Shown: one piece after another, positions 3,115 through 36,477 of the stretch
Layout: every line of letters begins with the position of its first letter
How positions within the stretch are numbered: position 1 is the first letter of the stretch
Source: a virus
Direction: 5' to 3' (one strand)
IMG/VR virus record: IMGVR_UViG_3300005264_000021
Span: 1 to 36,477 of that record
Length of the DNA stretch: 36,477 bases
Position numbers and translations under genes: made by a program
The notes under the pieces: generated by a model
Told to the model about the DNA's origin: nothing
Database searches by the model: none
The model's input: the letters and a program-made list of their open reading frames with translations, nothing else

Positions 3115-5200
3115 AGCAAGACAAAGTACAATTGCATTATTTGATCAATGTCCTAAAAGATTTAAATTTAGATTTATTGATAATATCAGAAGTCTTTTAG
3201 GACCTGAAGCTAATAACGCTTTAATAGTCGGCTCAACTTTACATTATGGTGCTGAACATGATAAAGATAAAATGATTGATTTTTATGAGAAACAATTTAG
3301 ATCCTTTAGCACTGATAATGAAGTTGAAATAATAAAATTAGAATATGCGTACGATTCGATGATACAAGTTTTAAAAACATTAGATATTTATAAAAAAGAA
3401 TTTACGTTATCGACTAATGATTTTACAGGAACAATTGATGTAATCACAAAAACTAAAAATGGTTATGGTTTATATGATATTAAATATTCAACCAATTATG
3501 ATTACTATATCAATTCGCCACAACTTCATATTTATAAATATTATATGGAAAAAATTTATAATATGAAAATTACAGAAATGGGATATATTTTTGTAACAAA
3601 AATAAAAGAACCTAAATATTTTAAAAATTTAGATGAAGGGAGAAAAATATTAGAAGGTAATACAATTTTTAAAAATGTATTAACAGAAATAAAGAACGTC
3701 AAATACAATGAAAGTTTTGTAGATAAATTTCATTATACTTATAATCATATAAAAAATGTAATAATGTTATATGAGTTAAATAAAGATGAGGGTTTATTTG
3801 AAAAAAACGAAACTTTCTTTTGTAACTGGTGTCCTTATAAAAAATTATGTCTCGGAGGAGGGGATGAATTAATGTATGAATTACCAAAAAACATTAAAAA
3901 GAAAGTAGAAGTGTTAGAAAAACCAAATCTAATGATTTATGGTGCTAGTTACTGTGGTAAATCAGTTTTTGCCGATAGTTATCCTGATGTATTATTCTTT
4001 AATACAGATGGAAACACGCAGCATTTAACAAGCCCAGTGGTCAATATACAAGACACTGTTGAAAAAGAGGGAAGATTAATAAAAAGAGAATTTGCTTGGA
4101 ATCATTTCAAAGAATATGTAACTACATTGTGTGAAGAAAAAAGTACATATGAAGTAATGGTTTTTGACTTAGTGGAAGATTTATATAGACATTGTAGAAA
4201 TTTTATGTTTGATAAATTAAAAATTGAACATGAATCAGATGATAAATTTTCAGCATGGGATAAAGTTACTTTTGAATTTATTAGAGAAATGAAAAAATTA
4301 AAATCATCAGGATATAGATTATTCTTTATTTTAAGAGAAAAAGAAACCAATGTGTATTTAAGAGGTGGAACTATTACTAAATATGAACCTGATGTTAGAT
4401 CTATAATAGCAAGAGCTTTATCAGGAATGGTAGATGCTACTATTAGATTTGTAGCTGATGGAAGTGATAGATATATTTTTGTTGGAAATGATCCTTATGT
4501 ATTTTCAGGTGGAAGAATGACATTTGATGTAGATAGAGTAGAAATGGATAGAGAATCTTTTGAATCAGCTGTATCTAGGGCTAGTGTTGGAAGTCTTTTC
4601 ACAGATAACTCACCTACTGAAAGAAAAAGTAAAAGTACAAGTAAAGTTAAAAAAGCTGTTAAAGATGAAGTAACAGCGCTTAAAGACGCTACTATTGAAG
4701 CAATTGAAAAACTTGAAGAGAATGCTCAAAAATTAGCTGAACCAATTAAGAAAACACGTAAATCAAGAACAAAAAGAGCAGTTGATGTATTTAAAGAAGA
4801 TAAATATTATTATTTTCAACAAACTAAAAGTTATATTTGTATTAAAAAAGGAAGTTTAATACCAACATCTGAAGAATATAAATTATATGATGAAATAACA
4901 AAAGAAGAATATTTAGAAAATACAAAATTAAAAGCTAAAAAAAATACTTATTATCATCATAAAAAAGATAATGAATTTTTAATGCTTGAAAAAGGTGCTT
5001 ACATTCCTGATAGCAAAGAATTTAAAGAATGTATAGAAATTACAGAAGAAGAATATAATCATGGTTTAAATTCAGAAAAAATATCACCAACAGAAGAAGT
5101 TAAAACAACCACAAGAAAAAGAAGAAAAAGAAGAGTAGTAGAAGAAGTACCAATTGCTGAAGATGAAGCTTTAGCTATCGATAATATGTTTAGAAAATAA
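3101..5200 (+). CDS. Fused PD-(D/E)XK nuclease and RecA-like (Sak4-type) ATPase
   Basis: This 699-residue protein has three parts. Residues 1-255 form a Cas4/RecB-like nuclease: D113 in GTID, D126-x-K128, and four cysteines (C17, C241, C244, C250) spaced like the iron-sulphur cluster of Cas4/AddB enzymes. Residues about 258-500 form a RecA-fold ATPase of the phage AAA_24/Sak4 kind, with Walker A GASYCGKS (281-288) and a Walker B-like VMVFDL. Residues about 500-699 are a basic, flexible tail with two related ~45-residue units (about 565-609 and 612-657). In many related phages nuclease and ATPase are separate genes. Here an in-frame ATG (3872, residue 258) has an ideal GGAGGAGGGG site at 3854-3863, so the ATPase may also be made alone. 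The likely job is end processing and strand annealing or exchange with the DUF669 protein. Confidence 0.85.
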   Translation: MKNFKARQSTIALFDQCPKRFKFRFIDNIRSLLGPEANNALIVGSTLHYGAEHDKDKMIDFYEKQFRSFSTDNEVEIIKLEYAYDSMIQVLKTLDIYKKEFTLSTNDFTGTIDVITKTKNGYGLYDIKYSTNYDYYINSPQLHIYKYYMEKIYNMKITEMGYIFVTKIKEPKYFKNLDEGRKILEGNTIFKNVLTEIKNVKYNESFVDKFHYTYNHIKNVIMLYELNKDEGLFEKNETFFCNWCPYKKLCLGGGDELMYELPKNIKKKVEVLEKPNLMIYGASYCGKSVFADSYPDVLFFNTDGNTQHLTSPVVNIQDTVEKEGRLIKREFAWNHFKEYVTTLCEEKSTYEVMVFDLVEDLYRHCRNFMFDKLKIEHESDDKFSAWDKVTFEFIREMKKLKSSGYRLFFILREKETNVYLRGGTITKYEPDVRSIIARALSGMVDATIRFVADGSDRYIFVGNDPYVFSGGRMTFDVDRVEMDRESFESAVSRASVGSLFTDNSPTERKSKSTSKVKKAVKDEVTALKDATIEAIEKLEENAQKLAEPIKKTRKSRTKRAVDVFKEDKYYYFQQTKSYICIKKGSLIPTSEEYKLYDEITKEEYLENTKLKAKKNTYYHHKKDNEFLMLEKGAYIPDSKEFKECIEITEEEYNHGLNSEKISPTEEVKTTTRKRRKRRVVEEVPIAEDEALAIDNMFRK
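3854..3874 (+). promoter_or_regulatory. Internal ribosome binding site and start codon for the ATPase half
   Basis: GGAGGAGGGG at 3854-3863 is followed 8 bases later by in-frame ATG 3872, exactly at the nuclease/ATPase boundary. The purine run also encodes the Gly-Gly-Gly after the last nuclease cysteine. It is either a relic of two separate genes or a live internal start giving a 442-residue ATPase. Its strength and spacing match true gene starts elsewhere in the window. Confidence 0.6.
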
Positions 5201-5214
5201 TAGGAGGTTTTTAA

Positions 5215-5667
5215 ATGAGTGTTTTTGATAAATTCAAAAGAACAGTAGACATACCAGGTCTAAAAGAAGATTTGAAAAAATCTAAAAGTGGAAAAAATGA
5301 TTTTCCTACAGTTCCAGAGGGAAATTATGAGGTTGAAATTGAAAAACTACAACCTGCAGAAACTAAATCAGGTAATCCAGCATTATCCGTTTGGTTTAAA
5401 ATTATAAATGGAAATTATAAAAATTCAAAGTTATTTATGACACAGCCAATAAATTTTGGTTTTGGATTACATAAAGCCAATGAATTTTTAAGAAGTTTAG
5501 GAACAAGTAAAGAGATAGTGTTTGATGATTTCACACAATATGAAAATTTATTGTTAGATATTGCAGAAGAAATCGTTGAACAACAAGATTACGAACTATC
5601 ATATACTATAAATTCAAAAGGGTATAGTGAGTTTGGAATCGAAGATATTTTTGAAATGGAGAAGTAA
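5215..5667 (+). CDS. DUF669-family protein, probable single-strand DNA-binding protein
   Basis: This 150-residue protein contains FPTVPEGNYEVEIEKL and an AETKSGNPALSVWFKI-like stretch, the signature of DUF669. That family regularly sits between a RecA-like ATPase and a polymerase in phages of low-GC Gram-positives and is thought to be an OB-fold SSB-like protein. The core is beta-rich (about residues 30-110) with an acidic C-terminus (IFEMEK) of the sort that recruits partners. It has a clear GGAGG site 14 bases after the previous stop. It probably coats single-stranded DNA for the neighbouring ATPase and polymerase. Confidence 0.8.
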   Translation: MSVFDKFKRTVDIPGLKEDLKKSKSGKNDFPTVPEGNYEVEIEKLQPAETKSGNPALSVWFKIINGNYKNSKLFMTQPINFGFGLHKANEFLRSLGTSKEIVFDDFTQYENLLLDIAEEIVEQQDYELSYTINSKGYSEFGIEDIFEMEK

Positions 5668-7353
5668 ATGTTATTTTATGACTTTGAGGTATTTAAAAAA
5701 GATTGGCTTATTGTAGTTTATGATATGTTAAATGAAAAAAAATATTACATCATTAACGATAAAGAAAAATTACAAGAATTTTATGAAGAACATGTTAATG
5801 ATATTTGGTTAGGATATAACTCTAAACATTATGATCAATATATTCTCAAAGGCATATTATTAGATTTTAATCCATATGAGATTTCCCAGTTCATTATAGA
5901 ACAAAAAAAATATGGCTGGGAGTTCTCTAATTCATTTAATAAAATTAATTTATATAATTATGATATAAAAATTGGATTCAGAAGTTTAAAAGAATTAGAG
6001 GGTTTTATGGGTAGTGATATTAAAGAATCAAACGTTCCTTTTAATATACAACGAAAACTCACCAAAGAGGAATTAAAGGAAGTTTTACACTATTGCATAC
6101 ATGATGTTGAACAAACAATAGAAGTGTTTTTAGAGAGCAAAGAAGAGTTCGATTCACACATGTCATTATTAAAAGCATTTGATTTATCATTAAAATATAT
6201 AAATAAAACTAAAGCTCAACTCTCAGCTATAATTTTAAAATCTCATAAAACCAATTTTAAAGATGAATTTGATATATCATTCCCGACAACTTTAGATATT
6301 AAAAAATATAAACACATAAAATCATGGTATGAAAATCCAAGTAATCATAATTATGAAAAAGAATTAAATTGTTTAATTGCTGAAACACCTCATAAATTCG
6401 CATGGGGAGGTTTACATGGTGCTAAATTAAATTATATTAAAAAAGGATTATTTATAAATGTTGATGTAGTCAGTTATTATCCTGCATTAATGATTGAATA
6501 TGGTTTTTTATCAAGAGGAGTTACGGATCCTAAGAAATATGAAGAAATCAGAGATAGAAGATTAGTGTTAAAAGCTGATAAAGATCCTAAACAATATCCT
6601 TATAAAATTGTATTAAATACAACATATGGAGCTATGAAAAATAAATGGAATAAATTATATGATCCTAAACAAGCTAATAATGTATGTGTAACAGGTCAAT
6701 TATTATTACTAGATCTAATTGAACATTTAGAGCCATTTTCAGAAATCGTTCAATCAAATACAGATGGTGTATTAGTAAGAGTGGATAGTGTAGCTCTAGC
6801 AGCACAAGTTAAATTAGCATGTGAAGAATGGGAAAAACGTGTTTACATGAAATTAGAATATGAAACATATGAAAAAGTATATCAAAAAGATGTTAATAAT
6901 TATATTATAATAAATAGACTAGGAGAATATAAATCAAAAGGTGCATATGTAAAAAAATTATCAAAACTAGATAATGATTTACCAATAGTAAATAAAGCAT
7001 TAATCAATTATTTTATAAAAGGTATTTCTCCAAATGATACAATTAATAGATGTGATAATTTATTAGAGTTTCAAAAAATATGTAAGGTGACTCAAAAATA
7101 TGAGTATGCCACTCATGGGAATAAAAGACTTAAAGAAAAAATAATGAGAGTGTATGCATCTAATAAAAGCAATGATTCTGGTATTTTTAAAATTAAAAAT
7201 AAAAATGGTGAATTAAGAAAAGAAAAAATAGCAAACACACCTGATAATTGTTTTATAGAAAATAAAGGTATAACAAAAATAAATGAAAAATTAGATAGAA
7301 AATGGTATATTGAATTGGCTAAAAAAAGAATAAAAAGTTTTGTGGGAGAATAA
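5668..7353 (+). CDS. Family B DNA polymerase with 3'-5' exonuclease
   Basis: The 561-residue replicative polymerase has Exo I YDFEVF (D5, E7), Exo II GYNSKHYD, and Exo III YCIHDVEQ. Polymerase motif A is DVVSYYP (D266-P272), motif B is KIVLNTTYG (K313-G321), and motif C is QSNTDG (D366). Motif C reads NTD where most family B enzymes read DTD; the second, catalytic Asp is kept. At 561 aa it is short. Only about 40 residues separate motifs A and B, so the large insertion of protein-primed phi29-type polymerases is absent. A primase lies next door, which also argues for RNA/DNA priming. Its ATG directly follows the DUF669 stop, with GGAGAAG as the binding site. Confidence 0.9.
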   Translation: MLFYDFEVFKKDWLIVVYDMLNEKKYYIINDKEKLQEFYEEHVNDIWLGYNSKHYDQYILKGILLDFNPYEISQFIIEQKKYGWEFSNSFNKINLYNYDIKIGFRSLKELEGFMGSDIKESNVPFNIQRKLTKEELKEVLHYCIHDVEQTIEVFLESKEEFDSHMSLLKAFDLSLKYINKTKAQLSAIILKSHKTNFKDEFDISFPTTLDIKKYKHIKSWYENPSNHNYEKELNCLIAETPHKFAWGGLHGAKLNYIKKGLFINVDVVSYYPALMIEYGFLSRGVTDPKKYEEIRDRRLVLKADKDPKQYPYKIVLNTTYGAMKNKWNKLYDPKQANNVCVTGQLLLLDLIEHLEPFSEIVQSNTDGVLVRVDSVALAAQVKLACEEWEKRVYMKLEYETYEKVYQKDVNNYIIINRLGEYKSKGAYVKKLSKLDNDLPIVNKALINYFIKGISPNDTINRCDNLLEFQKICKVTQKYEYATHGNKRLKEKIMRVYASNKSNDSGIFKIKNKNGELRKEKIANTPDNCFIENKGITKINEKLDRKWYIELAKKRIKSFVGE

Positions 7354-7359
7354 AAAATA

Positions 7360-9222
7360 ATGAAATACATTAAAATTAATGAAAAAAAACAACCATTGCA
7401 TAAATTAAAAGATTTTAAATCTTCATCTGAAATTAAAGATTCTGAAAATATAGCCGTTTTAATTGAAAAACCATATGTGGTGATTGATATTGATTCAGAA
7501 GAAGATTTTAAAAAGATTTATAATATAATAACATCTTTAAACATTAAGAGTAATATTATGAAAACTGATAGAGGTGGCCACTTTTGGTTTACATGTAAAA
7601 AAGAAGTATCAAATAAAATAAATAAAAGATGTGGTTTAACTGTTCCAGTAGATTTAAAATCAGGTTATAGAAACAGTATGGTTACTGTTAAATTTAAAAA
7701 CAAATGGCGAAAGTGGATAATCACACATAAATTAATAGATGAAATACCTGAATGGCTTTTACCTTTAGGTTTAAAAGATGATGTTAGAAATTTAAAAGAA
7801 GGTGAAGGTAGAAATGATGCATTATTTAATCTGATAATACCTCTATTAAAAAAAGGATTTTCAAAAACATCAATTTATAATACTTTTATAATTATAAATG
7901 ATTATATTTTAAAAGAATCATTACCAATTGCAGAAATAAACGCTATGTTTGATAAAAATACAATTTTTGAAACTGTAAGTAAAGCTTTTTTAGAAAAAGG
8001 TAAATTTAAACATGATGAATTTGCTAAATGGATTTGTAAAATTCATAATATAAAATATTATGACCGATTATACATTTACAAAAATAATATATATTATCCT
8101 GATTTAAGATTTATTGAACAAAAATTAATAGAAGAGATTCCAGTTTTAACAAAACATAGGAGAAAAGAAACGTTATCATATATGGAATTAATAGATTCAA
8201 ATATCAATTTTCCTAAAAAAGAAAAAATAGTTGTTAAAAATGGAACATTAAATGTAATGGTTGAAAAGTTAGAAAAATTTAATCCTGATGTTTTTTATAC
8301 AACAATGATTAATTGCAAATACGATGAAAACGCATATGATGAAAATGTTGATAAAATGTTAAATCAATTAATTTCTAATGATAAAAAAACTAGAGAATTA
8401 TTAGAGGAAGTATTAGGATATTTATTAGTGGACCATGTAGAATATCAAAAAGCATTTATAATTGTTGGTGAAGGTTCTAATGGTAAATCAACATTTTTAA
8501 AAATGATTAGAGAATGGTTAGGCGTTGAAAATTGTTCATCTTTAGCAATAGAAGAATTAAACCATAGATTTAGAGCTTCGGCTTTATTTAATAAAAAAAT
8601 AAATTTAGGAGATGATATTTCCTCTAAAAATTTAGCTGACTCAGCAATGTTTAAATCTTTAGTTACTGGAGATAAAATAGTATTAGAAAGAAAAGGTTTA
8701 GATGCATTTGAATATTGTTATACTGGTAAATTAATGTTTACATCAAATAGTATTCCAATGTTTAAAGATAAATCAATAGGTTTATCCAGGAGATTAGTTT
8801 TAATTCCATTTATAAATACCTATTCTTCAAAAGATAAAAACTATGATCCAGAAATACTTGATAAAATAACTACTGAAAATGCTAAATCATATTTATTAAA
8901 CTTAGCAATAAAAGGTATTCAAAGATTACATGAAAATAAAAAATTTACTGAAAGCAGTATTGTTTTAGAATTATATTCACAATTTAGAAAAGAAAATAAT
9001 TCAGTTATAGAATGGCTTTCACACATTAAAATAGATAAAATAATTAATGAAGATACTCATAACACTTATGTGAAATATAAAAGTTTCTGTTTATCAAATG
9101 GTTTAATGCCACAAGGTATAAGAAGAGTAAATAAAACTATAAGATTAGAAATGAAAGTAACTACATATGTTACAAGTATAAATGGTAAATCATTACAAAT
9201 ATGGAGGTTAAAAAATGAATAA
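7360..9222 (+). CDS. Bifunctional primase-polymerase and D5-type helicase
   Basis: This 620-residue replication initiator/primase-helicase has two parts. Residues 1-130 form an archaeo-eukaryotic primase (prim-pol) domain, with catalytic DID at D43/D45 and GGHFWF carrying H74. Residues about 230-590 form a D5_N linker and superfamily 3 helicase: Walker A GEGSNGKST (370-378), Walker B-like LGDD, and a TSNSIP sensor motif. A winged-helix-like C-terminus follows. Proteins of this design prime and unwind DNA in P4-like elements and many phages. With the polymerase, SSB and SNF2 gene it makes a largely self-sufficient replisome. The start lies 6 bases after the polymerase stop with only a modest GGGAG site. 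Confidence 0.9.
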   Translation: MKYIKINEKKQPLHKLKDFKSSSEIKDSENIAVLIEKPYVVIDIDSEEDFKKIYNIITSLNIKSNIMKTDRGGHFWFTCKKEVSNKINKRCGLTVPVDLKSGYRNSMVTVKFKNKWRKWIITHKLIDEIPEWLLPLGLKDDVRNLKEGEGRNDALFNLIIPLLKKGFSKTSIYNTFIIINDYILKESLPIAEINAMFDKNTIFETVSKAFLEKGKFKHDEFAKWICKIHNIKYYDRLYIYKNNIYYPDLRFIEQKLIEEIPVLTKHRRKETLSYMELIDSNINFPKKEKIVVKNGTLNVMVEKLEKFNPDVFYTTMINCKYDENAYDENVDKMLNQLISNDKKTRELLEEVLGYLLVDHVEYQKAFIIVGEGSNGKSTFLKMIREWLGVENCSSLAIEELNHRFRASALFNKKINLGDDISSKNLADSAMFKSLVTGDKIVLERKGLDAFEYCYTGKLMFTSNSIPMFKDKSIGLSRRLVLIPFINTYSSKDKNYDPEILDKITTENAKSYLLNLAIKGIQRLHENKKFTESSIVLELYSQFRKENNSVIEWLSHIKIDKIINEDTHNTYVKYKSFCLSNGLMPQGIRRVNKTIRLEMKVTTYVTSINGKSLQIWRLKNE

Positions 9223-17961: not shown

Positions 17962-20273
17962 GATACTTCACCATAAATTTTGAACATAACATCTCTTGAA
18001 GATTGTGCATTCCAACTTGTGCTATAATAAATAGCATTACCATTAGATTTTAAAATAGTTGTACTGTATAATATTGTACCTGAACCTGAACCATCTAATC
18101 TTTCAACTACAATTGCATAATCTGTATCTTTTTGTAATTCAAATCTGTTTTCTTTTTCAAAGTAAAATTGCAAATCTTGTCTTGGGCTATATGGTAAATC
18201 TTCAATATAAATTATTTCACTTGATGCTAAAATAACATCAGTTGATGGTTTTGCATCTGTTCCAACTGTGCCCGTAACATCATATAATCTTGCAATAAAC
18301 CTTCCCCTTCCTGTTGTTCTTTGAACTTTAAACTCGGCTCTTTTAATTTTAATAGTTTCTTCACAAGTGAAACTTTCACCTATTCTTGAAGTAGTCCCAT
18401 CAATATTGTATGAACCTGTTTCATCAGTTATATGTTTATCAGTTAATTTCAACCCACCTGTCACTGGAATTATACTTGCTTTTGCTGTTGCTTCATTCTG
18501 TGCTGAATTGTTTGTTGAATAATCAATGCTGATGGACTTTCCTGCAATGGTATCTGGTGTTACAAATATGCTTCCATCTTCATATGTCAATAACTGGTCT
18601 ATTTCTTCTAGTTCGGTTGTTACTGGTGTTGCAAGTTGATAATATATATCGCCATTTCCACTTGCTGTATCACCGTCTGCTATATCTCCACTTTGAGTAC
18701 CACCACCGTCTAATGCTATTATATATACACCAGTTGCACTTGCATCTGAATATGTTGATGTGCTAATTGTAGTTCCACTCGAAATCGCTGTTAAATCAGA
18801 TATATTTTTTTCATGCATCCACTCATTGTTTCCATCCTGATATATTTTATCGCATACTTCGTTGGGTAGATTTGCACCTATTTCAGGAAGTACAATAGTT
18901 GATGATTTGTGTTCTTCGTAATCGGTTACTGATGTGCCTATTTCTAGTTGTAGTGTGTCATATTCTGATTTGTTAGCTGAAAATCTCACATAACCTGTGC
19001 TGCCATTTAGTGTTACACTAGACTCTGTACTGGTTACTTGTGTTCTAAGTATAAATGTATCTTCATCTTCTCGCGAGTATTCACCTATCGACATTGTATT
19101 GGCTGTATCACACGATAAAGTAATACTAGATACACCTGAAACGTCATAAAATCTTGATATAAATTGACTTGATGACGGGTTAGTCCCGCCACCACTCGAA
19201 ATGTTATATCCAGCAAATGCGACATCTCTACCCTTATCAAATAAGTTTTTCCCAACAGAATATATTTCTTGCTGTTCTGCTGTTTTAAAACCTTCAAAAT
19301 AATCACCTATCCAAGATTTAACCTCATCTGCTGTTGGTTCATTTCCCGCACCAAATGCTTGGGTCAGGTTAATAGCGAACACTCCTGCGTTTCCGTCTAT
19401 TTCCATTACTGCACCATTTGCATCTGTTGTGTTGGTGTAAATGTTTCTAATTAAAATTCGTAAAAACCCTGTGAAATCTGCTGGTATTGTAAAAATCCCA
19501 TTAAAGACATACCACGCGTTTATAGTAGGCGAGGATTGCGTAATATCCAACGCTGTTCCTGCTGTAGAACCATCAATACTTACTTTTAGTTCAGTCGCAA
19601 GTGAATTAGTCACTCTTGCTCTAACTTTAACATATATTTTATCCCCATCAGAATATGATATAGGAGTATCTTGTTGTATTCTAGGTGAACCTCCAGAACC
19701 ATCTCCTGTAAGTGTTCCAATATTACCAGAAGTAGCGAGAACCCCATAAACATCAGTCCAATCACTCGTACTTGCAAAATCACCATTAGTTATTGCTTGA
19801 TATAATAAATTCCCATTGAATATACCCTTGATTGTTGGTGCTATTTTATTTAATGTTGGAACTGTTATTGGATATTCGCTATCTTCTTGTGTTTCAAATA
19901 ATGCAATTCCGCTTTCCCCACCTGATACCAATTCATAATATGTAGTACTAAAAGCTATTAAATAAATTCCAGGTTGTAAATTTTCAATATCATTTCCATT
20001 AGAATCTTTTAAATTTAAAGCACCACCACTATTCACATTTATAGTAACTGCACCACCTGAAATAGCATCAGCAATTTCAATTGAAATAATATCATCACTG
20101 ACTTGATCATAATTAGTATCTACAACACTTATAGCTTGAGAAATAACTGATGTTCCAAAAACATTACCTGAAATAACACTATTATTATAAATAGCATCTT
20201 CATTTAAATTTAAATTAGTAGCATTTATAGCTGGTGATACACCATTCGCCCACGTTTTTTTAACAAATCCCAT
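17958..20273 (-). CDS. Main tail fibre / receptor-binding protein
   Basis: This is a 771-residue protein. The N-terminus (about 1-150) is beta/coil and probably docks to the baseplate. Residues about 155-300 look like a carbohydrate-binding jelly-roll (NGDFASTSDW). About residues 300-320 hold LTQAFGAGNEPTADEV...YFEG, a motif common in phage fibre and receptor-binding proteins of Gram-positive phages. A second sugar-binding-like domain lies near the C-terminus. The middle (residues about 190-580) is richer in G+C than both ends, as expected for a swapped host-range module. It has a strong AGGAGG start signal and an ATGA overlap with the secreted protein gene. Confidence 0.75.
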   Translation of the reverse strand: MGFVKKTWANGVSPAINATNLNLNEDAIYNNSVISGNVFGTSVISQAISVVDTNYDQVSDDIISIEIADAISGGAVTINVNSGGALNLKDSNGNDIENLQPGIYLIAFSTTYYELVSGGESGIALFETQEDSEYPITVPTLNKIAPTIKGIFNGNLLYQAITNGDFASTSDWTDVYGVLATSGNIGTLTGDGSGGSPRIQQDTPISYSDGDKIYVKVRARVTNSLATELKVSIDGSTAGTALDITQSSPTINAWYVFNGIFTIPADFTGFLRILIRNIYTNTTDANGAVMEIDGNAGVFAINLTQAFGAGNEPTADEVKSWIGDYFEGFKTAEQQEIYSVGKNLFDKGRDVAFAGYNISSGGGTNPSSSQFISRFYDVSGVSSITLSCDTANTMSIGEYSREDEDTFILRTQVTSTESSVTLNGSTGYVRFSANKSEYDTLQLEIGTSVTDYEEHKSSTIVLPEIGANLPNEVCDKIYQDGNNEWMHEKNISDLTAISSGTTISTSTYSDASATGVYIIALDGGGTQSGDIADGDTASGNGDIYYQLATPVTTELEEIDQLLTYEDGSIFVTPDTIAGKSISIDYSTNNSAQNEATAKASIIPVTGGLKLTDKHITDETGSYNIDGTTSRIGESFTCEETIKIKRAEFKVQRTTGRGRFIARLYDVTGTVGTDAKPSTDVILASSEIIYIEDLPYSPRQDLQFYFEKENRFELQKDTDYAIVVERLDGSGSGTILYSTTILKSNGNAIYYSTSWNAQSSRDVMFKIYGEVS

Positions 20274-31994: not shown

Positions 31995-33254
31995 TTACCA
32001 TCCCCACTTTGTAGTTTTCATATCGTTTTCAAAACAATATCTAGTTGCATCTATAGTGTGATTATCTTTATCTTCTAATTTTGATTTTATATTTCCATCT
32101 TTATCAACCATGTAATCTATTGATTCAAATTCTCTAGCTATGTTAGGAGTTCTTTGTGGATCAATAATTATTTCTTCTAAATCATCAAGCCATTTTTCAC
32201 CAAACTCTACTGAACCTTGTCCTTTTTTAGCTCCTATAAATCTACTACCATAACTATTCATTTCTGAAATACTTTTAGGTTCAGCACTATCAGCTACTGT
32301 CATGGTATTATTATAACTGTTTAATTTTAATTTGTCATTAAATTCTCTATTTGATATTTTAATACCATATATCTCATTCATTCCATATATTATTCTCCTG
32401 GTTTTATCATAGTGCCATCTAACAAATGCTAATGGATCTACAGCATATCCCCAGTCACTCCCTTGTCGAATGTTATCAAAACTGTTAAATTCTGCATCCG
32501 TAATAGTTCTAAATGTTAAATTATCAAATGGAACCACGCCTGATCCTATCGGTTCTCCTAAATATTCCCAGTTATATCTTCTCTTATTTGATGATTTAAT
32601 ATGTTCAGCTTCATCAATCCATTGTTGTGGTAAAAAAGGATTATCAAGAAAGGTTGAGTGATGGATATAAGTATTAGGTGGAATAATTACTGATTCACAC
32701 GTTTTATTTATCCAGTTATGTTTTCTTTTAGGAGGATTATAACTATGAAAAAAAGTATATTTATATCCATCACTTAAAATTTCTCTCATTATAGATAATT
32801 TAATACTGCTAAGTTCTTCTTCTGTTTTAAATTCAGTGATCTCTTCAAACCATATATCAACAGTTGGCATCTTTGGAGTTTTCCATCCTTTGATTTTTTC
32901 CCCATCAGCTCCTTCAAAAAATATTTTAGTACCTGTTGGTTTATATGTGATCGTCATATCACCTGATTCAGTATCGGACCAATACCATGATGATTGAACC
33001 TCTAAATGATATATAGACCATATTATTTGATTCCTTACACTTTTACGTAATGTGTTTTTAAACTTCCTACAACATAACCCATGAGTTAAGGTGGTCATTC
33101 TATTCATAACCATCTTACATGAAATAGTTGTGGACTTGGAAGATCCTCTGCCACCTTTTTCAAACACATTAGTAATTTTTAAATCATCGTATATTCTCCA
33201 GGCATCATAAAAGCTTGGTACAATTTTTTTACTTATTCTAACTTCTTTTTGCAT
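31995..33254 (-). CDS. terL: Terminase large subunit (Terminase_3 type)
   Basis: This 419-residue packaging motor ATPase and nuclease has Walker A GGRGSSKS (34-41), Walker B TVDIWFEE (D133-E138), and a C-terminal RNase H-like nuclease with acidic residues D267 (GSDWGY), D322 (VADSAEP) and D402 (HTIDATRY). The sequence resembles the PBSX/SPP1-like Terminase_3 group, which is associated with headful packaging. That agrees with the circularly permuted assembly. It overlaps the small subunit gene by 17 bases. Confidence 0.93.
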   Translation of the reverse strand: MQKEVRISKKIVPSFYDAWRIYDDLKITNVFEKGGRGSSKSTTISCKMVMNRMTTLTHGLCCRKFKNTLRKSVRNQIIWSIYHLEVQSSWYWSDTESGDMTITYKPTGTKIFFEGADGEKIKGWKTPKMPTVDIWFEEITEFKTEEELSSIKLSIMREILSDGYKYTFFHSYNPPKRKHNWINKTCESVIIPPNTYIHHSTFLDNPFLPQQWIDEAEHIKSSNKRRYNWEYLGEPIGSGVVPFDNLTFRTITDAEFNSFDNIRQGSDWGYAVDPLAFVRWHYDKTRRIIYGMNEIYGIKISNREFNDKLKLNSYNNTMTVADSAEPKSISEMNSYGSRFIGAKKGQGSVEFGEKWLDDLEEIIIDPQRTPNIAREFESIDYMVDKDGNIKSKLEDKDNHTIDATRYCFENDMKTTKWGW

Positions 33255-33750
33255 TTTTCAAATCATCCACTATTATTACAGTAGTCACATTATTATCACC
33301 TTGATAAATATTTTGATGTTTACCAATTGCTTCTGAAGCTTTTAATCTATCTCTAGGTGAAATTTGTTTTTTATGAGAAAAACCTAAACCATCAATTGTT
33401 TCTTCTTTAATTTCTCCTCTTAAACATTTAGTCCAAAATTCAAGAACTTCTTGAGCATCAGCAATTCTTTCAGATTGTAAAATATTAATGTAAATTTCAA
33501 TATATCTTTTAATATTTGGTTTACATAGGTTTTCTGAAGCAATACCTGCTGGACTTTTAGATTTATAACCTGCACGTTTTACAGCTTCAGTTCCATTATT
33601 CAAAATAATATAAAATTGACAAAATAAAACCATCCTCCTGGTCATGCTCTTTTCAAGTTCTTTTAATTCTTTAATAAACTCCAGAGGTTTATCAGATTCT
33701 TTTTTAAAAAATTTATTCTGTATTTCTTGTTCATATTTATTAAATTTCAT
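33238..33750 (-). CDS. terS: Terminase small subunit (Terminase_2 type)
   Basis: This 170-residue protein has a helix-turn-helix region (about 36-80, FCQFYIILNNGTEAVKRAGY... GIASENLCKPNIKRYI), the DNA-recognition part of Terminase_2 proteins, then an oligomerising helix and a C-terminal segment ending in a basic tail. It binds the packaging start site and hands the DNA to the large subunit. It is the first late gene, with AGGAGG 6 bases before the ATG. Confidence 0.9.
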   Translation of the reverse strand: MKFNKYEQEIQNKFFKKESDKPLEFIKELKELEKSMTRRMVLFCQFYIILNNGTEAVKRAGYKSKSPAGIASENLCKPNIKRYIEIYINILQSERIADAQEVLEFWTKCLRGEIKEETIDGLGFSHKKQISPRDRLKASEAIGKHQNIYQGDNNVTTVIIVDDLKNAKRS

Positions 33751-33768: not shown

Positions 33769-33774
33769 ATTATA
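33769..33774 (-). promoter_or_regulatory. Possible extended -10 for the late block
   Basis: TGCTATAAT on the minus strand ends 18 bases before the terS start codon. There is no good -35, and the start point would fall in the ribosome binding site, leaving a very short leader. It is the nearest promoter-like sequence to the late block, but may be fortuitous in such AT-rich DNA. Confidence 0.35.
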
Positions 33775-33903
33775 GCATTTTTTAAGAAATTTTAAAAATA
33801 ATTTTTCAAACTAACTAACTAACTAAGATTCCCATACTCCACACTATTACAGTATATACTATATTATAACTATATTTATTTATTACTAATTTAATAGATT
33901 ATT

Positions 33904-34108
33904 CATTAGTTTATTAGTTATTAAGTAAAATAACCCTATATAAAGGGCTAAACTCCAACTAATGAAAAACTAATGAACAACTAATAGAATTCTTTCGTTA
34001 GTTTTATTTACAGTTTTTGTAATAAATAAAAAATTAAGTTTTTACAATATATGGTAATAAAACTAATGAAGCGTTTTTCGTTAGTTTTCATTAGTTCTTT
34101 TATTAGTT
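33904..34108. repeat. Iteron array, consensus AACTAATGAA in both orientations
   Basis: Direct copies start at 33957, 33968 and 33979 (exactly 11 bases apart) and at 34061. Inverted copies (TTCATTAGTT form) end at 33911, 33919, 34003, 34086, 34096 and 34108. The inner part reads three direct plus one inverted, a 57-base AT-rich gap, then one direct plus three inverted, close to a large mirror arrangement. They are probable binding sites for an initiator or regulator. Confidence 0.75.
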
Positions 34109-34174: not shown

Positions 34175-34203
34175 TTGCATAATATAAAATCATAATATAT
34201 AAT
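34175..34203 (+). promoter_or_regulatory. Promoter of the early block
   Basis: TTGCAT (34175-34180), a 17-base spacer and a perfect TATAAT (34198-34203) predict a start near 34207-34211. It directly precedes the structured leader and the first early gene. Confidence 0.7.
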
Positions 34204-34206
34204 TGT

Positions 34207-34345
34207 ATCTGTTGAGAGGGTATCTCAATCGCCAACACTTCCTGATCAGTATTGACTTTTGTGACAGAAAAGAAGCAAGTGTATCGGCATTAAGTAATGT
34301 AGCATTATTCAGTTGTAAGCCTGATTGAGAAATACAGAACACTTA
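34207..34345 (+). ncRNA. Structured 5' leader RNA of the early block
   Basis: From the predicted start to the ribosome binding site lie ~150 untranslated bases with G+C clearly above the flanks (23/60 in 34201-34260 against 9/60 in 34141-34200). TCTCAATC (34223-34230) pairs perfectly with GATTGAGA (34323-34330), enclosing ACACTT/AAGTGT (34235-34240 with 34277-34282), CTTTT/AAAAG (34256-34260 with 34268-34272) and CATT/AATG (34288-34299). TTGAGA (34212-34217) can instead pair with TCTCAA (34223-34228), a competing fold. No U-run follows, so control would act on translation or RNA stability, or the RNA may act in trans. No known riboswitch class is recognised. Confidence 0.5.
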
Positions 34346-34368
34346 AATGAATTAAAAAGGAGAAGTAT

Positions 34369-36327: not shown

Positions 36328-36477
36328 ATGCCTGAAATGTTAAATAAATATAAATTAAAAAGAAAAAAAATTATTGATGATTTTGGTGAATTTCCTGAAA
36401 TAGCAAATATTACAAGATTTTCACCAAGTAGTGCATATCAATATTTAAATGGTAATAAGCAAAGTGAATTATTTTTA
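36328..36477 (+). CDS. Small HTH-like protein, N-terminal part (continues at 1)
   Basis: ATG 36328 follows GGGAGGAGGATG at 36311-36322. The 50 residues present here continue without a break into 105-173 once the 104-base overlap is merged, for 72 residues in all. The start is basic (NKYKLKRKKI), followed by the possible helix-turn-helix region. See the entry at 1-173. Confidence 0.6.
   Translation, partial: MPEMLNKYKLKRKKIIDDFGEFPEIANITRFSPSSAYQYLNGNKQSELFL
36374..36477. repeat. Right copy of the 104-base terminal direct repeat
   Basis: Identical to 1-104. See the left copy for the interpretation as a circular assembly. Confidence 0.9.

Follow-up and report, generated by a model that had tools for sequence, protein, structure and literature searches.

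The iteron array between the early and late genes

The stretch analysed here (the window: IMG/VR virus record IMGVR_UViG_3300005264_000021, 36,477 nucleotides) represents a phage genome that is circular, 36,373 base pairs (bp) long and 29% GC. Its positions 1-104 are exactly repeated at 36374-36477, so that the genome is circular, or circularly permuted, and the two ends of the assembly overlap. The late genes run leftward from the terminase small subunit gene terS (33750) and the early genes rightward from 34369. The gap separating these divergent blocks, where an earlier sequence-based note had placed it, holds an array of ten short repeats (iterons), 152 bp upstream of terS (Table 1), which we consider very probably to be the replication origin of the phage.

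Along the array, the sites follow one another as << [47] >>> < [67, 88% AT] > <<<. The near-symmetrical inverted set reported in the earlier note is thus a real mirror arrangement, albeit an imperfect one (<< / >>> < / AT-rich centre / > <<<), and three sites do lie exactly 11 bp apart, at 33957, 33968 and 33979. The count of at least ten copies of AACTAAT was slightly overstated: ten AACTAA[T/C] sites are present, eight with exact AACTAAT and two with AACTAAC (33994 and 34077, minus strand). The exact form AACTAATGAA occupies five of the ten sites, and these account for all five of its copies in the genome. Two further features lie close by. On the terS side, outside the array, 33809-33827 (AACTAACTAACTAACTAAG) is a four-base tandem repeat like the iteron core, and within the 37-bp spacer the minus strand of 33931-33950 has a terminator-like hairpin followed by T-rich DNA (TAGCCCTTTATATAGGGTTA TTTT).

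Could such an array have arisen by chance or mutation, as a functionless group of short repeats in AT-rich DNA between genes? The region is indeed AT-rich, and AACTAAT alone is not rare: counted over the whole genome, the bare core shows no enrichment (16 copies against 18.9 expected), its density being local. The 618-bp intergenic stretch, however, contains 8 copies, whereas 2000 dinucleotide shuffles had 0.58 on average and never more than 4. When the genome is scanned with a weight matrix derived from these ten sites, the top nine matches all fall inside the array. A caveat is that, when the 241-bp array is itself shuffled, some single favoured 7-mer reaches at least 8 copies in 27 of 2000 shuffles, because these inherit the biased composition of the array. 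Given this local density and a geometry that few random arrays match (see below), a chance origin is exceedingly improbable. A clustered-repeat search recovered no second array in the window, and none within 3 kb after the primase gene.

Table 1. Coordinates of the iteron array and of associated features in the window
Feature	Coordinates	Strand	Remarks
Terminase small subunit (terS)	33238..33750	-	first late gene left of array
Likely late promoter	33769..33796	-	TTTAAA-16-TATAAT, extended -10 at 33774-33769; outside array; prediction
Iteron array, proposed replication origin	33902..34108		ten sites, consensus AACTAA[T/C]GAA
Iteron 1	33902..33911	-	AACTAATGAA
Iteron 2	33910..33919	-	AACTAATAAA
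37-bp spacer	33920..33956		with AACCCTATATAAAGGG; weak resemblance to family spacer element AACCCTTGATATnACTGG, suggestive only
Iteron 3	33957..33966	+	AACTAATGAA
Iteron 4	33968..33977	+	AACTAATGAA
Iteron 5	33979..33988	+	AACTAATAGA
Iteron 6	33994..34003	-	AACTAACGAA; inner, inverted
AT-rich centre	34004..34060		88% AT; proposed melting site
Iteron 7	34061..34070	+	AACTAATGAA; inner, inverted
Iteron 8	34077..34086	-	AACTAACGAA
Iteron 9	34087..34096	-	AACTAATGAA
Iteron 10	34099..34108	-	AACTAATAAA
Likely early promoter	34175..34203	+	TTGCAT-17-TATAAT (TATAAT 34198-34203); outside array; sequence reading only
Single-strand DNA-binding protein (SSB)	5215..5667	+	phrog_7778
Phage DNA polymerase	5668..7353	+	phrog_1252; expected replicase
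D5-type primase-helicase	7360..9222	+	phrog_864, DUF5906; proposed initiator; SaPI5 primase-helicase relative
C-terminal winged helix, residues 548-620	9001..9219	+	predicted structure; proposed iteron-binding domain

The earlier note had entertained a master operator alongside an origin, i.e., a multi-site operator at which a phage helix-turn-helix (HTH) protein, such as the product of the 72-residue open reading frame at 36328 across the genome join, would switch divergent early and late transcription. The position of the array between these units fits such a role, and inverted repeats spaced about one helical turn apart would suit a dimeric regulator. Nevertheless, repressor operator sites would be expected to overlap the promoters they control, whereas neither likely promoter, as predicted here on either strand, is overlapped by the array; the supposedly HTH-like 72-residue protein has no significant PHROG family match; and in relatives the same geometry goes with the primase instead of with divergent promoters. 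With the likely promoters outside the array and its geometry following the primase, the operator claim finds no support and appears improbable, although the array may have some regulatory effect in addition to its proposed main role.

Among the products of the early genes are an SNF2-type helicase, a VRR nuclease, an exonuclease/Sak4-like protein, SSB, a DNA polymerase and the D5-type primase-helicase. Judged by the polymerase, the closest named relatives are Paenibacillus phage Wanderer and Staphylococcus phage PI-Sepi-HH2 (57-59%). Single-protein scans of viral contigs with TerS, the terminase large subunit (TerL) and the primase, and of genome contigs with the primase, yielded no relatives. 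Rfam and tRNA scans gave no matches, and the early leader RNA (34205-34368) is no more stably folded than shuffled versions of itself (z -0.06).

Arrays across loci with homologous primases

We fetched 80 viral loci solely by homology of their D5-type primase-helicase and sought any clustered 8-mer in them, leaving the repeats of the window unused. Once near-duplicates were removed (distinct loci being less than 90% identical), clusters were present in 44 distinct loci, 31 of them with the cluster in the first 1 kb after the primase stop codon, where a uniform spread would put 2.8, and 13 with it elsewhere. Most of these arrays have a common layout, '< ~46 > ~9 > ~85 bp AT-rich < ~9 <', in which the four distances span 41-50, 7-12, 77-99 and 8-10 bp, respectively. 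It is filled with iteron letters that vary widely among loci (GTTACAGA, CTGTAACC, CTAGGACA, GCCTTAGA, ACTAAGAT, AAGTCAAG and others); in a subset, the centre measures 141-147 bp and the right-hand set is reversed. At the 3' end of the primase gene, Staphylococcus phage PI-Sepi-HH2 (L007) carries CATAAGACA iterons mirrored around an AT-rich centre, and the streptococcal satellite phage Javan98 (L128) has a full array directly after the homologous primase (after 7166), together with a AACCCTTGATA element.

In the terms of this family, the window array reads '< 47 > 11 > 11 > (98, AT-rich centre) < 10 < 12 <' plus two inner inverted sites, the start-to-start distance of 47 across the 37-bp spacer being clearly that of the family. 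It falls within the orientation and spacing limits '< 41-50 > 7-12 > 77-106 AT-rich < 7-12 <', as do 322 of 20,000 orientation-shuffled arrays and 15 of 20,000 fully random ones, figures that serve only as a guide because we set the limits with both the family and the window already in view. A further family trait is a spacer element between the iteron sets, AACCCTTGATATnACTGG, which is matched at 14 or more of its 17 positions by half of the arrays (28 of 56) against 1 of 260 controls, the motif having been picked by eye from some of the arrays scored; it occurs in the array regions of L022-L068 (e.g., L031:12005 and L038:8451) and in Javan98.

The array need not accompany the primase gene. 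In locus L064 it lies 6.3 kb upstream of the primase, adjoining the SNF2 gene, and in L050, L065 and L068 it lies 2.6-3.5 kb downstream of the primase and at most 0.8 kb from a terS homologous to that of the window, the geometry being kept in all four. The window can be read as the L050/L065/L068 arrangement with the early block inverted, the array and terS having been left together. The recurrence of the geometry this far from the primase itself counts in favour of an origin. Proximity to terS, here and in those three loci, is also what one would expect of a packaging site (pac or cos) bound by the terminase small subunit. However, in most relatives the array adjoins the primase and lies at a distance of 1.4-8.6 kb from terL, no terminase was found near the L064 array, and that of Javan98 directly follows the primase gene; as most relatives thus have their arrays away from terminase genes, packaging is a very unlikely function for the window array.

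Several observations from these loci stand apart from the common layout. L064 contains two arrays of the same iteron (AAGTCAAGAT), at 3507-3709 and 19244-19437, about 15.7 kb apart, possibly representing two origins. In Paenibacillus phage Wanderer (L006), a single primase gene is flanked by inverted-repeat clusters of three kinds (36237-36645 and 38544-38781), the CCTTCA and GGCGGTTTTACC types upstream and the GTAACAGA type downstream. Mycoplasmopsis phage PMF329 (L008), which shares the divergent early/late layout of the window, carries in its divergent gap seven head-to-tail 8-bp CAATTAAA repeats (196-253) in direct rather than mirror arrangement. In L080 (10001-11014), the primase frame is broken by a stop, with homology continuing to 11869, and the CTGTTACA array is intact. 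Separately, a scan of viral contigs for tandem AACTAATGA returned 39 contigs, none with a dense array, which we took as chance matches; the only homology among them to the window proteins searched was a weak tape-measure match in L103.

The primase-helicase and the proposed origin

Searched by sequence against the PDB, the primase-helicase has a single match, the SaPI5 primase-helicase 7ola (E 3.9e-31; SaPI, Staphylococcus aureus pathogenicity island), which its family profile recovers with E 2.9e-71; a fold search places 7ola/7om0 at all eight best matches (E 4e-26). Its AlphaFold model (mean predicted local distance difference test score, pLDDT, 89.8) ends in a helix-helix-strand-strand succession of the winged-helix pattern (H566-579, H587-598, E600-607, E610-617; pLDDT 84-91). 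Hence, by sequence and fold relationships, the protein is best described as a SaPI-Rep/D5-type helicase fused to a primase and, by analogy, would be self-loading. The same analogy indicates that the array iterons are probably bound by its C-terminus.

The family-wide association of arrays with the primase, their common geometry and the relation of the primase to the SaPI5 primase-helicase together support an origin strongly, bearing out that part of the earlier proposal: in about 30 distinct phage loci, a primase-helicase homologous to that of the window is accompanied by an array of this general geometry, and published SaPI-type origins are organised alike. Several points weigh on the other side. 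The window array is not beside the primase gene, which ends at 9222, the array being about 9.6 kb upstream on the circle. It has the two inner inverted sites and a tandem spacing of 10-12 bp against the usual 9. The 8-mer cluster search found no array in 11 of 55 distinct homologous loci. By score, AACCCTTGATATnACTGG is absent from the window (best ungapped match, 10 of 17 positions), and a gapped resemblance, AACCCT--ATATAAA, arises in 1 of 200 shuffles but also in 26 of 300 random 37-mers of the window. Covariation between iterons and the primase C-terminus is not significant (partial rank correlation 0.06, a value reached in 115 of 500 permutations). Finally, the GC-skew minimum coincides with the array, yet is fully confounded with gene orientation.

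We propose that, at this putative origin, the winged-helix C-terminus of the primase-helicase would bind the AACTAA[T/C]GAA iterons, and that one hexamer would be loaded at each of the two inward-facing sets (>>> and <<<), whereupon the AT-rich centre between them would melt. The helicase would then load itself and prime, and the fork would be handed to the phage polymerase and SSB, with replication probably proceeding bidirectionally from the point of early/late divergence. A more tentative extension is that the origin was uncoupled from the initiator gene and placed at this divergence, where initiator binding could perhaps also time the early-to-late switch.

Relationship to known replication origins

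An unnamed repeat array thus becomes a precise candidate origin with a named proposed initiator. More generally, these arrays suggest one rigid origin blueprint, with iteron letters free to change, in many phages and in the satellites that parasitise phages. As the origin can move away from the initiator gene, a search for origins should consider geometry rather than adjacency alone. Functionally, such an origin would be nothing new, but the literature cited here (PMC6092414, PMC7581432) describes neither its detached location nor the wide occurrence of the rigid blueprint in full phages.

In the published origins of phage-inducible chromosomal islands (PICIs) and SaPIs, an AT-rich region with a set of iterons on either side directly follows the 3' end of the gene for the initiator (PMC6092414). 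SaPI Rep recognises its origin via its C-terminal domain, the SaPI5 version fusing primase and helicase, and Cch2, a relative of SaPI Rep, binds direct repeats at its putative origin through its C-terminus (PMC7581432). Accordingly, although the earlier note knew of no named site of this kind, the array is organised like a PICI/SaPI Rep origin. As in the PICI/SaPI pri-rep-ori module (PMC6092414; PDB 7ola), the window encodes a primase-helicase fusion, and the two proteins belong to one fold and sequence family. Unlike that module, its iterons are AACTAA[T/C]GAA, its array has two extra inner inverted sites and lies beside terS at the early/late divergence rather than immediately 3' of the initiator gene, and it belongs to a full phage, not a satellite. 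Since organisation and initiator match and the adjacency does not, we classify the array as a putative variant of the PICI/SaPI-type origin rather than as a standard member. The Cch2 system of the staphylococcal cassette chromosome mec (SCCmec) likewise has a D5-type helicase related to SaPI5 Rep, whose C-terminal domain binds direct repeats downstream of its own gene; it differs in a putative origin with only three 5-nucleotide iterons and in a primase that is a separate protein (PMC7581432).

The arrays downstream of homologous primases in other phages (for example L010, L015, L044, L061 and PI-Sepi-HH2) share with the window the primase family, the orientation and spacing pattern and the AT-rich centre, and differ in iteron sequence, location and tandem spacing (11 in the window versus 9). 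The alpha protein of the phage/plasmid P4 offers a parallel for the detached location: it, too, is a single primase-helicase initiator that recognises iterons, and its origin need not adjoin its gene, although P4, unlike the window, uses a separate crr element.
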